This document shows positions 9,711 through 40,649 of a DNA stretch of 64,000 bases, piece by piece; the stretch's first letter is position 1, and each line of letters begins with the position of its first letter. Below the pieces are notes generated by a model that worked only from the letters and a program-made list of their open reading frames with translations, had not been told where the DNA came from and ran no database searches. Source of the DNA: Tricholoma matsutake (Eukaryota > Basidiomycota > Agaricomycetes > Agaricales > Tricholomataceae); contig AP026544.2 of the NCBI GenBank assembly GCA_026075535.2, positions 1,736,001 to 1,800,000 of the forward strand, read 5' to 3'. Made by a program: the position numbers and the translations under genes.

Positions 9711-10281
9711 TGTCAAGACCAATTCCTCTGACCAGAATTCCAATTTGTTTTCCACCACCTTTCCCAGCTGCCTTGCATCACAGTCCACCTCCTATCAGCA
9801 CCACCACCTAGAGATGAAATTCTCTCATTTCCAATTTGATGAAACAGTTTCAGGATAATTGCCTTGGAGGCTGGTTTGCAAATTATCACAGCCTCGGAAA
9901 TTCTGATTGCCTCCAGCCCTTAGTATTTAAGCTAGCTACTTTTGCCTTGTAATAGGCAGTTTGTAAATCAACAAAGTCTTGACCCAGTGAAACACTCCAA
10001 ATAATCTCCAAAGTCTATCTCGAACTTTAGCTTGTTCCCCCCCAAAAAACCTCTGGACCTCTGATCATCCTCTTAAAACTCTTGTCTTGAAATTAGGACA
10101 CTTGACAAGGAGAAGGGTGCAACTTCTTATAAGTTGAAGCTAAGTCCTTTCTGTCCCCTCATGCTTGGTGCAGCACATCAAGTGAACTCTGTCCTGGAAT
10201 CCCATCAGGTTCCCTTCCTTGTTTCTATCCTCCCCCTAACCTTCTAGCTCTACTGACCAGGTATGACCAGAAATCTGATGA
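9711..10281 (+). repeat. Gypsy LTR (5'), family 1
   Basis: Starts TGTCAAGACCAATTC. It is closely similar over its whole length to 18,367-18,929, including the promoter-like segment TAGTATTTAAGCTAGCTAC and the segment AGGACACTTGACAAGGAGAA. It ends near GACCAGAAATCTGATGA. It is followed by a leader and the gag at 10,558, so it is best read as a 5' LTR. No 3' partner in the right place is seen. Confidence 0.75.
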
Positions 10282-10557: not shown

Positions 10558-11519
10558 ATGTCTCAGCCTCTGGAGACCCCTCAGAATATGACTCCACTTG
10601 AGTACATAGAGAATGTTGGGCAGCCCAGCCCCTTTGACAAGGAAGGTCCAGGTAAAGTGGATGGACTTCCTGGAGGACCTGACAACCATAGTGGTTTTGA
10701 TGGCCCCAGGGATTACCCTGATCCTGACATCCCTGTTGATCCTCAACCTCCTGGTGGTGGGAATCCTGACCCAGGAGATAGGTTCCTCAATGCTCTCTTT
10801 GACCTCTTGGATAGTCTCCAAACCCTCTGGCAGAGCCAAGCACCCAAAACTGAGAAGATCAAAGTCTGGGATCCTGACACTTTTGATGGGGCCAATCCCT
10901 GGAAACTTTGGGACTTCCTGGTCTCATGCAACTTCACTTCTGCGATCTTTGCCTCTGACAAAAAGAAGATCCTGTTTATCTTTTTCTACCTCAAAGGGTC
11001 AGCCCTTAGCTGGTTTGAACCTGGGCCCAATGTTCCAACAAGTTCTGCTCATTGGATGTGGAACTACAAGGAATTCCTCAGTGAGTTGGAAGGTAATTTT
11101 GGTCCACACAACCCTGTTGGAGACACAGAGAAAGCCCTTTCAGAACTCACAATGAAGAAAGGTGGACAAATAGTCAAGTACAATGTGGACTTCTGGGAAC
11201 TCATGTCCTGGGTCAACTGGAATAAGGCTGCTCTTCAGGACTGGTACTTCTGAGGTCTTCTGCTCCACCTTCGCATAGAAGTCTTGTGAGGGGGGATGAC
11301 CTGAAACCCTAGCATCCTTACATCTTAAAGCTCAGGATGCTGACAACATCTATTGGATGCAGGAAAAAGAAACCTGCTTTGAAGCAAAGACCCCCAGAAA
11401 TTCTGCATACCACAGGAAAAAGGAATCTAAAGGTTCTCCTAACTCCAATTCTAACTCTGACACTCAGTCCAAACCTCAGTCCTCATCCAACTCTAATCGC
11501 ACAAAGCAAACCTCCTCTG
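10558..11519 (+). pseudogene. Ty3/Gypsy gag, family 1, broken
   Basis: Gag polyprotein N-terminal and capsid region. A Gly/Pro/Asp-rich leader is followed by the capsid blocks VWDPDTFDGANPWKLWDFL, KILFIFFYLKGSALSWFEPG and EFLSELEGNFGPHNPVGDTEKA, typical of basidiomycete Gypsy gag. The frame stops at 11,251 after QDWYF. The expected continuation (RLAQALD-like region, then a Ser/Asn-rich linker with SNSNSNSDTQSKPQSSSNSN) is still visible up to 11,519 in a shifted frame. TIR element A begins there and the zinc knuckle is lost. A related knuckle sits at 18,983-19,123. Confidence 0.8.
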
Positions 11520-12161: not shown

Positions 12162-12801
12162 TATCTTACCATTACCATTCTCCCTTCCACGTACCCCCAT
12201 GCCACTGCTGTGAGCCTCTGCTTGCAGGGTGGGAATGGGTTTTGTTTCTGGCCGACACAACAACAATTGCACCTGACAATGACTGGCAACACCAACAAAA
12301 GTGGTGGCCAACAACAATGGCACCACCACCAGCACCAGCGCCAATGCCAACGCCACATCACAGAACCACCACCCCACCTACAAGCCACTGCTCGTAGGGG
12401 AAAATGGTGGTGCTGACAACGATGGAATGGGGTTATCAGACAGCAGGCACGATGGGAACAACAAGGAAGAATGGGGGGGACAACAAGAATGCAGGACAAC
12501 AAACGTGGGACAATGAACATGGGACAACAAATGTGGGACAACAAATGTGGGACAACAAATGTGGGATGACAATGACAACATCGACATCAACACAAATGCA
12601 GGACAACAACAACATTCACGAATGCAGGAGAATGATGAACACGGGGAACGACCCCACCAATGTGAGTGCAGGGTTGTTTCTCCTTTACCTTTTGTCTTTT
12701 TGTCTTTCTTTTTTTTAATCTGAATAACCCCTCACTGCTGCGAGCGGCTGCTCACAGTGTTAAGACTATTGGTCTTTAACTCAGCCTCAGCTTCATGTGT
12801 T

Positions 12802-13051
12802 ACAGTTGGAGGCTTTCCAACTGTCTTGTATCGCACTAGGAGACTTTCCTAGTGTATCGGGCTTCCTGCCTTTACTTGGGTACTTCCTCAAGTAGTCATG
12901 GCTATCCATACTCAGAGGCTTTCTGAGTAGACCATTCATTCGTGTATCACAGTTGGAGGCTCTCCAACTGTTGAGTTCGGGTTATCACAGCTAGGGGCTT
13001 CCTAAGCTGTCAAGTTCAAGTGTATCACAACTAAGGGACTTCCTTAGTTGT
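12802..13051 (+). repeat. Seven-unit periodic hairpin array with fixed loop
   Basis: Hairpins start at 12,802, 12,834, 12,874, 12,910, 12,949, 12,987 and 13,027, a spacing of 32-40 bp. Arms (left/right) are ACAGTTGGA/TCCAACTGT, CACTAGGA/TCCTAGTG, ACTTGGG/CTCAAGT, ACTCAGA/TCTGAGT, ACAGTTGGA/TCCAACTGT, ACAGCTAGG/CCTAAGCTGT (one bulge) and ACAACTAAGG/CCTTAGTTGT. Six of the seven have a 5-nt loop reading GGCTT, GACTT or GGCTC. The third has TACTTC. Most units are preceded by TATCAC or TATCGC. Stem sequence changes from unit to unit while pairing is kept. Function unknown. Confidence 0.85.
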
Positions 13052-13790
13052 CGAGTGTTCTGGTTGAGTCTAAGACTGTTGGTTGAATTAGGTCAAGCTG
13101 GAGAATACACAGAGTGTAGCTACAGCCTATATACTGTTCCAGGACTACCTATTGTCCAATCAGAAAGTGAGATGCTTATCAGGTAAATATAGACAAGAAC
13201 AATAGAGACAATAGGCCTCATGCCCCACATGAGGCGTCCAATGTCAAGGAGTGCTGCGGCACAGCATATCAGAGAACAATAAGAGAATAGCCTCATGCCT
13301 GGCATGAGACGTCCGATGTCATGGATCCAATGTTGAGGATCCGGTGTCAAGGACATGCTGCAGTGCAGCATGTCAATTGTGAGGGTCCAATGTCGCGGAC
13401 CTCATGTAGAGGGGGTGTCGTACCACGGTGCGTGTGAGAGTGGGTTTGGGTGCATGGAGTCACCATGCATCAAGGTGTCTTCCTGTCGGAAGAGAGTCGA
13501 GTTGAATAAGAAAAATGAACTACCCGTACTTGCAGGTTCCTATAGACAAATCATAACATGCAGGGTGAATGTGAATAGTTGTATTTAATATATAAATTAA
13601 ATTACATATTGAAAAGTGCTGGAAAAACTGGTGGCAACCAGTTTTTCGAGGGCAACTGAACCGATTAGGACCGGTCCTAATTGGTTCGGTTGTGGTCCTT
13701 CCAAATTGGGTGACCATTTGGACTGGTTGCAGTCCACGGTTGCCCCTTTTGGGGGCAAAAAACTGGACTGAACTGGACCTTAAAACACTA

Positions 13791-18366: not shown

Positions 18367-18929
18367 TGTCAAGACTGATTCTCTCGACCGGATTTCCAAT
18401 TGTTTTCTGCCACCCTTCCTGGCCACCTTGCATCACAGCCCACCTCCTATCAGCAGCACTGCCTAGAGGTGAAATTCCCTCATTTCCAATTTGATGAAAT
18501 GATTTCAGGATATTTGTCTCAGAGGCCAGTTTGCAATTATCACAGCCTCAGAGACTCCAATTGCCTCCAGCCTTTAGTATTTAAGCTAGCTACTTTTGTC
18601 TTGTATCAGCAGTTTGTAAATCAACCAAGTCTCCCACTTAATTCCATCCCAATTATGCTCCAACTACTCTCTTAAGTCTATCTCAAACTTTTGCTCATCC
18701 TCTCCAGAAGATCCCTGGACCTCTGATCATCCTCCTTACCCTTGTCTTGAATCAGGACACTTGACAAGGAGAAGGGCACAACTTCTTATAAGTTGAAGCC
18801 AAGTCCTTTCTGTTCCCCACTTGGTATGACACATCAAGTGAACCTTGCCCTGGATCCCCATCGGGTTCACTGCCTTACTCAATCCATCTTATTGACTTCT
18901 AATGTCCGGGTATGACCAGAAATCCAACA
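18367..18929 (+). repeat. Gypsy LTR, family 1, second copy
   Basis: Starts TGTCAAGACTGATTC, ends near ACCAGAAATCCAACA, and is similar along its length to 9,711-10,281. It is preceded by a purine-rich AAGGGGGAAATAC, which looks like a polypurine tract before a 3' LTR. It is followed 50 bp later by gag sequence, as expected after a 5' LTR. The context is rearranged and the role cannot be decided. Confidence 0.75.
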
Positions 18930-37976: not shown

Positions 37977-40649
37977 ATGCCACCTGAGCCATCAGAGAAC
38001 CCACGGTTGAGACAGTACCAGAAGGGAAGCAGATATATGGTTGAAGAGTGGAAGATCATTGAGCCTTATAAAGTTGCATTCTGATCGCAGGAATTGAAAG
38101 CTGGCCGATTGCAAATACTCAAGTGCAACTCTCCTCCTCATCCAAAGGGGCCCTGTCAATTGACACCCAGTAGTTGAATATTGGTGGGAGGACGCATTTG
38201 TGCCAAGGTAAACTCACAAGCATGTGAAGGTTGTATTATTGATCACATCGCCAGGAACTAACAACCTGGCTTTCCAACAACTGGTGAATGACCAAAGGCC
38301 TCTCACAGAAATCAAACCACTTCAAAGTAAAGCGGTGGGAAGTCATTTGGAGCTTGTACCAGGACCGAGTTTTCCAACAGATTGCAAACCTGTTAGGTGT
38401 TGAGGACGCCACCACAAGTACACCAGGATGGTTCCAAGCGCAACTGCCAGCTATCAAGCATGTTTTCGACACCATGAATGCAGAGGAGAAAGCCATCCTT
38501 GAAGTTGAACAGGAGAAAATGATGTGGGAAGGATATCCCAAGCAGACGAAGCGAGTGTAAGTTGAAGCCGATGCCATTGCCATTGCCGGACATAATGAAC
38601 ATTTCACAGTCTAGCAGACAAATACCTCCTTAAACATGTGGTGGAGAATGCATGACAACAGTGGCTGGAAATGGGGGTGTTGTCTGTGACATTTACAGCC
38701 TATACTGCACCTAATGGTTTGATGGTTGTTGACATGTGAGTCCCTGAATCATTTACTGCCAATGCGATGCCGATGCCGATGCCGACTCCAGTCACAAAAA
38801 TGTTGCCTCTCTGATAGCCACCCCTGCACAATTGTTTCTGGACACATATCATGATCAAGTAACTGAACTGAAGTGAAACTTTATGGGTTATATTAAGCTT
38901 TTATGCCCATCACACCTTGCTTCAAGGTTGGCAATGCAACATAATGCAACACTAACCCGATTAACAATGACTAACAATGGCTTCCCAATCCTTCCCACAT
39001 CATGGAAAGGATCACAATTCAAGAAAAAAGAGCTGGAAGAATGGTTTATGTTGTATGTTGGCCAGCATTATAGTATGTTGACTTCCTATTCCACAAACCA
39101 TTACTTATCTCCTGCAGAACTAGCAAACAATGGTCGTAGTCACCATATCCCATTCAAAGCAATTGCAGATTGGACATCATCATTTGTCAGTCCAGAATAT
39201 CTCCCAGCTAGGTTCAAAATCAGAGACCCACAGAACATGCACAAGAGTGTCATAGAAGACTTCTTTGACCATGTTCTGCAACAACAAATAGTGCAGGGCC
39301 CTGAAAGAGTGTTCCGGTTCAAAGCAATCAAAGCCATGGATGGGAGTGTGGCTCCTACACACTATCCAAATGATTTGAATAACCCTTCACCCTCCTGACA
39401 CATTTCCAAATTCAGGGGCCAAAGAAATGATGATCCTGATCCTCATAGTGGCACCGAGCTCGGGGCCATTGCCGATGCCGAACTGCCTTCTGCAAACCGC
39501 AGGGGCCAAAGAAATGATGATGCTGATGCCGATCCTCAACCCAGCACCGAACTGGAGGCAGTTGCTGCTGCTGAACTGCCTGCTGCATCAAGAGGCAGAA
39601 AAGTTGTCAAAGGCAAACCCAAGTGCAAGGAAGCTTGCCAAATATCAACAGCAGGACAGACCCCAAATTCTGATACAACTGAATCACAATATGTCCAAGT
39701 GGATCACATGACAATGGACAGCCTCTGCATGGTTGGTGTCACTCAACCACAGCCAATTAATGGTCCTAGTGATGGTGAACCAGAATATCTTGTTCCTTGA
39801 CACATTTACATGAGATACATCACGCCTGGATCAGCTGGAAATGCCATTGTAAATGATCCCCCATGCCCAATTGATCCATTTTTGTTAAATATACCTCAAG
39901 AGAGCTCACAGCGCCCTAAGCCTTGACCACTTTTAGGGGGAAATTGGACAGAGCATCCTATTGCAAGGGCAAGGGCTTTAGCAGTGTTAGTGGCATCAGC
40001 AATGGCAACAGTGGCATTGGCAACGGCAACAGTGGCATTGGCAACAGCAACAGTGGCATTGGCAATGGCAACAGTGGCATTGGCAATGGCAACAGTGGCA
40101 TTGGCAATGGCAACAGTGGCATTGGCAACGGCAACAGTGGCATTGGCAATGGCAACAGTGGCATTGGCAACGGCAACAGTGGCATCAGCAATGGCAACGC
40201 CAATATCAGCAATGGCAACAGTACAATCGGCAATGGCAGCACCAATATCGGCAATGGCATCTCTAAGATTGGCAATGGCAACACCAATATTGGCAGCAGC
40301 ACCAGTAGGATCGGCAATGGCAACACCAATATTGGCAATGACAACAGTACAATCGGCAACGGCAGCACCAATATCAGCAATGGCATCTCTAAGATCGGCA
40401 ACAGCAACACCAATATTGGCAGTGGCACCAGTAGGATCAGCAATGGCAACACCAATATCGGCAATGACAACAGTACAATCAGCAATGGCAACATTGGCAA
40501 CGGCAACACCAGGATCGGCAGCAAATCCATCCTCAGCATGAGCATGACCTATCTGAAGGACAGCCAATGACCTTGCACAGCAGGAAGCCATTTCAACCCA
40601 GGCTGTTGGGAGGAGACGGAGAATTAAAAAAGTGACATTTGCCACATAG
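37977..40649 (+). pseudogene. KDZ-element partner gene, copy 2
   Basis: Unknown-function gene divergent from the transposase. MPPEPSENPRLRQYQKGSR starts at 37,977, with a stop after EPYKVAF. Conserved blocks are SNHFKVKRWEVIWSLYQDRVF (38,318-), TPGWFQAQLPAIKHVF and EEKAILEVEQEKMMWEGYPK. An intron follows at 38,558-38,610 with GCCATT repeats. Then come LADKYLLKHVVENA, VLSVTFTAYTAPNGLMVVDM, a second hexamer-containing intron, and a long exon from 38,883 with KKKELEEWFMLYVGQHYS. A single TGA at 39,396-39,398 (a likely CGA change) interrupts the frame, which is otherwise open to 39,800. The region 39,990-40,540 is a minisatellite. The end VTFAT lies at 40,649. Confidence 0.6.
39993..40525. repeat. 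18-bp minisatellite and higher-order repeat in partner gene copy 2
   Basis: About ten copies of an 18-bp unit GGCAACAGTGGCATTGGC are followed by two copies of a longer unit of about 126 bp (CAGTACAATCGGCAATGGC start). It is built from GGCAAT/GGCAAC/GGCATT hexamers. Several frames on both strands are open (Thr-Val-Ala-Leu, Asn-Ser-Gly-Ile, Val-Ala-Ile-Ala repeats), a property of the hexamer rather than proof of coding. Confidence 0.9.

Follow-up and report, generated by a model that had tools for sequence, protein, structure and literature searches.

The window analysed here, a 64,000-nucleotide stretch of the Tricholoma matsutake genome (contig AP026544.2, positions 1,736,001 to 1,800,000), contains a series of short hairpins whose loops recur from unit to unit while their stems vary, and we asked what kind of sequence this is, whether its pairing is under selection and how its units could have arisen. 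A preliminary description, made from the sequence alone, had suggested either selection on structure or a copying process able to generate palindromes about a constant core, and knew of no described element with this plan.

The hairpin array and the element that carries it

Seven hairpins are indeed present at 12802..13051, with starts 32-40 bp apart (Table 1), and six of the seven plus-strand loops (in order GGCTT, GACTT, TACTT, GGCTT, GGCTC, GGCTT and GACTT) belong to the set GGCTT, GACTT or GGCTC that had been claimed. That the arms differ almost completely proved an overstatement, since stems 1 and 5 are the same and several others have a loose pattern in common, and the TATCAC tag said to precede most units is exact before three of them (12945, 12983 and 13023) and approximate or absent before the others. 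Two stems (12873 and 12987) contain a one-base bulge. Read as RNA, most loops are AAGCC or AAGUC, with AAGUA or AAGCA in hairpin U3, whose stem pairs least well among the copies (85.6% of cells, the lowest of the seven hairpins).

The array stands out from resampled and shuffled sequence. The window has 29 perfect hairpins of at least 8 bp, whereas 10 Markov-resampled windows average 8.3, and five of the 29 start within 260 bp at the array, compared to a maximum of two in the resampled windows. The region 12790-13060 folds better than shuffled sequence by 5.8 standard deviations on the plus strand and 7.1 on the minus strand, while the leader in the window has six stem-borne AAGYM pentaloops; 5000 dinucleotide shuffles of it gave 0.03 on average and never more than 1. 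The Rfam 15 covariance models gave no match at E <= 1 to window positions 12700-13700, which rules out a known Rfam RNA as the identity of the array.

Table 1. Coordinates of the LTR, its putative signals and the hairpins in the window.
Feature	Position	Strand	Description
LTR of Ty3/gypsy chromodomain retrotransposon	12758..13558	-	One copy in the window
Long-range helix, 3' arm	12771..12782	-	From predicted folds
Hairpin U1	12802..12824	-	9 bp, RNA loop AAGCC
Hairpin U2	12834..12854	-	8 bp, RNA loop AAGUC
Weak mini-hairpin with GGAAGCC	12859..12870	-	3 bp; 86% of cells paired in 36 copies
Hairpin U3	12873..12894	-	6+2 bp, one bulge, RNA loop AAGUA
Hairpin U4	12909..12929	-	8 bp, RNA loop AAGCC
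Hairpin U5	12949..12971	-	9 bp, RNA loop GAGCC in the window, AAGCC in most copies
Hairpin U6	12987..13010	-	6+3 bp, one bulge, RNA loop AAGCC
Hairpin U7	13027..13051	-	10 bp, RNA loop AAGUC; absent from many copies
Long-range helix, 5' arm (U5-IR-like)	13066..13077	-	From predicted folds; closes the array
Self-primer AGCUUGACCU	13090..13099	-	At putative RNA 5' end; complementary to sequence after the 5' LTR
TATA box TATATAGG	13126..13133	-	34 nt upstream of putative RNA 5' end

When the Tricholoma matsutake assembly (161,040,721 bases in 13 contigs) was searched with positions 12780-13080, 1072 candidate places were obtained, and the best 40 of these 1072, which were scored, had identities of 94-100%. 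Twelve of these 40 best places formed six pairs 6.5-7 kb apart, and self-comparison of six loci with pairs at this distance (L009-L014) identified the direct repeats as LTRs of ~800 bp. Target duplications of 5 bp surround L009, L012 and L014. The LTR in the window is flanked by CACAG and TGCAG, which could be a single CGCAG duplication decayed at CpG; because the flanks can be read in this way, the copy is apparently a solo LTR.

The long gag/pol open reading frames of the full copies are antisense to the plus strand of the window, so the array, read in the coding sense, sits close to the LTR's 3' end, i.e. in R-U5. Pfam matches in the open reading frames of L009 and L012 comprised Ty3_capsid, RVP_2, RVT_1, RT_RNaseH, Integrase_H2C2, SH3_Tf2-1 and Chromo; the full-copy frames also carry a Retrotrans_gag match, and the protease is of the aspartyl type. 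Among the best 120 of 4312 matches to the pol protein, the named relatives come from Lyophyllum shimeji, Moniliophthora roreri and Sparassis crispa, and some are annotated as Tf2 elements. A scan of viral_contigs with the pol protein confirmed none of three pattern stretches.

The surroundings of the LTR are themselves repetitive. Two repeats with 81% identity (9711-10220 and 18367-18876) resemble the two LTRs of an older gypsy element, one with a gag open reading frame at 10558-11253, and the LTR that carries the array seems to have been inserted between them. A short tandem array of ACAACAAATGTGGG-like units with a 14-bp period lies upstream of the LTR (12500-12572), and a further tandem array occupies 39989-40493, where overlapping self-matches are displaced by multiples of 21 bp.

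Putative RNA start, self-primer and leader fold

Transcription is predicted to begin at ~13099 of the minus strand, which would make the array part of the R-U5 leader. In the family of this LTR (family A), AGCTTGACCT begins 34 nt past the start of the TATA box, and the full copies have AAAGGTCAAGCTGATC directly after the 5' LTR, in which AGGTCAAGCT is the complement of AGCTTGACCT. A related family (family B) was recognized among 20 places hand-sampled across the scores of 150 listed Ty3_capsid places, 15 of which belonged to it; the two families have a common U3 region, and the primer and PBS of family B are AGTTTAGATCT and AGATCTAAACT. The 34-nt spacing was found at 99 of the 103 family-A sites and all 20 family-B sites with a TATA box, a count that excluded 77 family-A and 17 family-B matches to the primer string without a TATA box in the preceding 45 nt (truncated stretches and opposite-strand PBS sites contain this string as well). 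Complementarity of 9-12 nt between primer and PBS was present in 18 of 20 leaders and absent from the other two (L094 and L111); in self-priming chromoviruses of the Tf1/sushi kind it covers about 11 nt, and the primer is made by cleavage of the RNA 5' end. Such a match between the PBS and the putative RNA 5' end is the hallmark of self-priming in Tf1 and Tj1, and the carrier is thus apparently a self-priming chromodomain element of the Tf1/sushi type.

Unconstrained folding of single leaders is consistent with this arrangement. In the predicted fold of the L012 leader (z -6.6), the first nine nucleotides pair with the PBS, and a long-range helix of GGUCUUAGACUC with GAGUUAAGGACC encloses the hairpins; the L087 leader (z -6.2) has the same primer-PBS pairing, long-range helix and hairpins, while in the L091 leader (z -5.2) primer and PBS pair and the long-range helix appears in the centroid structure only. 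RNAalifold applied to 36 family-A leaders recovered the long-range helix and hairpins U6, U5, U4 and U1, but only three pairs of U2 and neither U3 nor U7, the last of which is absent from 24 of these 36 leaders.

Family B differs in much of this. The unconstrained fold of its leader L074 pairs primer with PBS (z -4.8) and has a long-range helix different from that of family A. This helix is missed by RNAalifold on the family-B alignment, which did not include the PBS and in which the primer pairs with an internal CTAGATC instead. The family-B hairpins, for example CACUAAGG-AAGCC-CCUUAGUG and CGAGG-AAGCA-CCUCG, number one in 7, two in 8 and three in 4 of 19 leaders, so that repeated hairpins with the same loop characterize family A while 7 of 19 family-B leaders have just one. 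L074 contains three AAGYM hairpins against a shuffled mean of 0.014 and a maximum of 2, although counting hairpins of at least 7 bp with any 5-nt loop gave one, against 0.1 in shuffles with a maximum of 2, and thus no excess over chance. Since primer, PBS and long-range helix differ between the families and the AAGYM loop is kept, the former have been replaced while the loop stayed; as the families are related and have their U3 region in common, this conservation of the loop is one seen between relatives.

The U3 region itself contains palindromes, located in the window at 13215-13235 and 13352-13374, of the forms GCCTCATG-N5-CATGAGGC and GACATGCTGC-AGT-GCAGCATGTC. Related palindromes occur in many family-A and family-B leaders, though R-U5 and PBS differ. 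They are possible dimer binding sites, and their presence in both families is a possible sign of modular LTR exchange.

A further gypsy family in this genome, represented by L151 and L153, is taken to be marY1, judged from the 426-bp LTR of L153 alone. This LTR is unlike the ~800-bp LTR studied here in sequence as well as in length, and marY1 was thus ruled out as the carrier. In L151 and L153, AGAGTTTTCT precedes the LTR end and AGAAAACTCT lies just after it, a primer/PBS match by which this family, too, may be self-priming. No AAGYM hairpin was found on either strand of three 951-base stretches (L151-L153), of which that of L152 covers just an edge of the element. The stretch L151:435-560, beginning within the primer, is no more stable than its shuffles when folded (z +1.8), and primer and PBS do not pair in this fold. 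A primer/PBS match in a family without the array suggests that self-priming as such does not require the array.

Covariation, loop conservation and unit number

Loops and stems were compared in 102 leaders (83 of family A and 19 of family B) in which the exact primer string and the LTR end were required. Among the leaders excluded by this rule are L094 and L111, two of 20 leaders, which have neither hairpin nor primer match, as well as L084 and L096, in which hairpins are present, and the family-A copies of L017 and L022. Unbulged hairpins of at least 7 bp with a 5-nt loop in the 102 leaders carried AAGCC in 263 cases and AAGUC in 90, with every other loop occurring at most five times, and the same leaders contained 44 distinct 8-nt arm pairs. 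Examples of stems whose two arms have changed together include CACUAGGA/UCCUAGUG in the window versus CAGUAAGA/UCUUACUG in L098, CUACUCAGA/UCUGAGUAC versus CUACUCUGA/UCAGAGUAC in L150, and ACAGUUGGA/UCCAACUGU versus ACAGUCAGA/UCUGACUGU in L079.

Covariation was measured in two subsets, with the proviso that unit exchange and recombination can inflate such counts. In 36 of the 83 family-A leaders, with the weak mini-hairpin included, 13 of 75 pairs and 29 cells had changed on both sides, compared to shuffled means of 3.3 and 5.1, and none of 500 shuffles reached either count; 96.8% of cells could pair, against 31-42% when the partners were slid. The number of further pair types in this subset (29) was not higher than in shuffles (mean 28.6, with 254 of 500 shuffles reaching 29). 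The second subset of 60 leaders, from which the mini-hairpin was excluded, combined 27 of the 83, hand-picked for diversity, with 33 of the 37 loci L114-L150, the other four being lost to primer or end mismatches. Here, both sides had changed in 81 cells belonging to 15 of the 72 pairs (20.5 cells and 7.1 pairs on average in shuffles; at most 5 pairs and 11 cells in slid controls), and further pair types were more numerous than in shuffles (41 versus 36.8). On a tree built without the stem columns, we counted at least 26 changes from one Watson-Crick pair to another over 16 pairs, 15 in hairpins, a count that is approximate because of recombination and whole-unit exchange.

Diversity among 68 close copies followed the same division. 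Over all sites, nucleotide diversity was 0.0193 in stems, 0.0221 in loops and 0.1233 in spacers, a raw contrast between stems and spacers that largely reflects CpG decay in the spacers, the stems having few CpG sites; at non-CpG sites, it was 0.0098 in stems and 0.0362 in spacers. Taken together, the covariation in both subsets and on the tree, the loop counts in the 102 leaders and the lower diversity of stems than of spacers indicate that the stems covary while the loop is kept, and support the earlier suggestion of selection on structure.

Selection acting on the coding-strand RNA alone would be expected to leave more G-U than A-C intermediates. The 68 close copies contained 8 G-U and 6 A-C types in 65 and 11 cells, respectively, whereas the 36 leaders contained 12 of each type in 25 and 32 cells, and the hairpins on the tree 28 G-U and 25 A-C events in 42 and 51 cells (the outermost, mostly unpaired pair 216-237 was excluded from this tree count only). 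With no clear excess of G-U across the three sets, the comparison is compatible with a role at the DNA level as well.

The number of units varies. AAGYM hairpins numbered seven in 20 of the 83 family-A leaders, six in 53, five in 6, four in 3 and three in 1, the leader in the window scoring six by this fixed rule because one of its loops reads GAGCC, and 37 further loci had two to six. One subfamily cleanly lacks one unit, and a GAUA tag lies 3' of 310 of the 666 AAGYM sites in family-A leaders. The variation in unit number, the clean loss of a unit and the GAUA tag fit tandem duplication and loss. The common arm patterns, common spacer tags, gain and loss of units and pair changes on one side led us to reject a mechanism that copies palindromes around a fixed core, for which we find no support; the best reading of these sequences is ordinary tandem duplication followed by compensatory drift of the stems under selection for a fixed loop.

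Possible functions and relation to known systems

Location, predicted fold, covariation, loop conservation, unit-number variation and primer/PBS complementarity are read from the sequences themselves; we infer from them where transcription starts, that the hairpins work at the RNA level and that Gag binds them for packaging. We tentatively propose, at somewhat less than an even chance, that the array is a feature of the R-U5 leader of a self-priming chromovirus and that its hairpins most likely dock Gag for packaging. With a start at ~13099 (minus strand), the RNA would fold its initial ten or eleven nucleotides back onto the PBS after the LTR, and a second long-range helix would close a large multiloop around two to seven hairpins, each showing an AAG(C/U)(C/A) pentaloop. 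Units would arise by tandem duplication and be gained or lost by recombination, and their stems would drift by compensatory change because selection acts on pairing and loop only. Each hairpin would thus be one docking site for the element's own Gag, and the array would mark genomic RNA for packaging or seed assembly while primer and PBS are kept together.

An RNA-binding protein that reads the loop would be expected to leave just this trace, a loop conserved in sequence on stems conserved in pairing alone. A zinc-knuckle-like motif, CFVCHQPGHRAT[EK]H, is present in the C-terminal part of Gag in six of six elements, and, according to the available text of PMC4974528, the Gag zinc finger of Ty3 is critical for RNA packaging; this motif and the role of the Ty3 finger lead us to rank Gag docking first and structural compaction second. 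In a fuller version, which we put forward as no better than possible, the array would be a multivalent signal in which the loop alone is informative, the stems can be rewritten and the units adjusted in number, and Gag or another zinc-knuckle protein of the element counts, packages or nucleates genomes in a manner coupled to primer annealing.

Downstream of the chromodomain, four of six inspected elements contain additional coding sequence, in which there are two zinc knuckles (CFICHQIGHFGLIC and CRYCKRRGPGHYSPDC). The frame is open in L010:1969-2655 (minus) and L014:6483-7046 (plus), while L011 and L013 have the same knuckle sequence with stops beside it. The 228-aa L010 frame matched no Pfam model at E <= 0.1, and none of 52 candidates was a homologue at E <= 1e-3; the L014 frame had a weak zf-RING_10 match alone (E 0.04), below the cut-off. 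A possible reading of this frame is an accessory RNA-binding protein.

The hairpins might instead merely fold a long leader so that the RNA 5' end comes near the PBS, their loops being unread by any protein. Their position inside the long-range helix between primer and PBS, and the persistence of the primer-PBS match despite widely varying unit number, fit such compaction, but it leaves unexplained why the loop letters are kept while the stems change, and the marY1-like family does without such hairpins in its short R-U5; we consider compaction unlikely. A little less probable in our judgment is control of translation, with the hairpins binding a host RNA-binding protein or helping ribosomes past a long, structured leader with upstream AUGs to reach gag. 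In one copy, L009, the predicted leader up to and including the ATG of a long gag open reading frame measures 634 nt and has five ATGs upstream of that one, and the five hairpins folded reach -9.8 to -12.4 kcal/mol; this reading, however, offers no candidate protein.

We give the same small weight to selection on double-stranded DNA, whether the units are near-palindromic transcription-factor sites downstream of the start or form cruciforms. The wobble test, with its lack of a clear strand preference, and the palindromes in the U3 region of the same LTRs speak for this reading, but a dimer binding DNA would be expected to keep the arms, which here change in concert (44 pairs in 102 leaders), the kept loop is asymmetric, and a site between self-primer and PBS fits an RNA role. 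Least probable by far is that Dicer or a similar enzyme cuts the hairpins as a source of small RNAs that silence the element: short stable hairpins in a high-copy element would suit it, but a conserved loop would not be expected, and Dicer substrates usually have longer stems than the 8-10 bp seen here. The family provides a set of natural variants, with two to seven hairpins, 44 arm pairs (in 102 leaders) and one kind of loop, that can be used to identify the protein reading the loop and to ask if copy number has an effect, and a case of a repeated structural signal evolving by tandem duplication and compensatory drift.

The assertion that no described element has this plan holds for the array, which is undescribed in the literature searched, but not for the carrier, which by sequence is of a known kind, a self-priming chromovirus. 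Like the Tf1/sushi group (Tf1, Tf2, Tj1 and Tosmo1-3), the carrier has a chromodomain integrase, here with a Tf2-1-like SH3 domain, and, as far as the accessible accounts go, a PBS complementary to the putative RNA 5' end with long-range pairing around both. Self-priming is described for Tj1 in the portion of PMC4600332 available, and the "pretzel" fold of Tf1 consists, in the available part of PMC10085805, of long-range pairing around primer and PBS with three duplexes, two of them adjacent to the PBS; here, a primer-PBS helix and one long-range LTR helix are predicted. Measured against those same texts, an array of two to seven hairpins with a common pentaloop is a feature of the matsutake family's own. 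The marY1 element of Tricholoma matsutake (683 copies and a 426-bp LTR in the accessible text of PMC10211490) is likewise of the gypsy group and resides in the same genome, while the marY1-like family differs in its LTR, its short R-U5 and its lack of AAGYM hairpins.

In Ty1, Ty3 and retroviral packaging leaders, as covered by the available texts, genomic RNA is selected by Gag or NC, whereas the role of Gag here is putative, and the portions of that literature on encapsidation and packaging leaders yielded no tandem array with one repeated pentaloop. The literature searched as a whole, seen in part (including PMC10211490, PMC3601003, PMC4600332, PMC10085805, PMC10627285, PMC7925004 and PMC4974528), describes self-priming folds and no such array, which is weak evidence as it covers few subscription papers. 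The nearest analogue in these sources is coronavirus SL5, in which, according to the available part of PMC7925004, hairpins SL5a/b/c have a UUYCGU loop and a packaging signal has been proposed but not validated. It likewise places several hairpins with the same apical loop in a 5' leader but, on that account, belongs to an unrelated virus with an unrelated loop and has at most three hairpins on one junction rather than a variable tandem array, so that the likeness is an analogy of working and not of descent. Taken together, these comparisons point to a known kind of element, an apparent self-priming chromovirus, with an apparently new leader feature.
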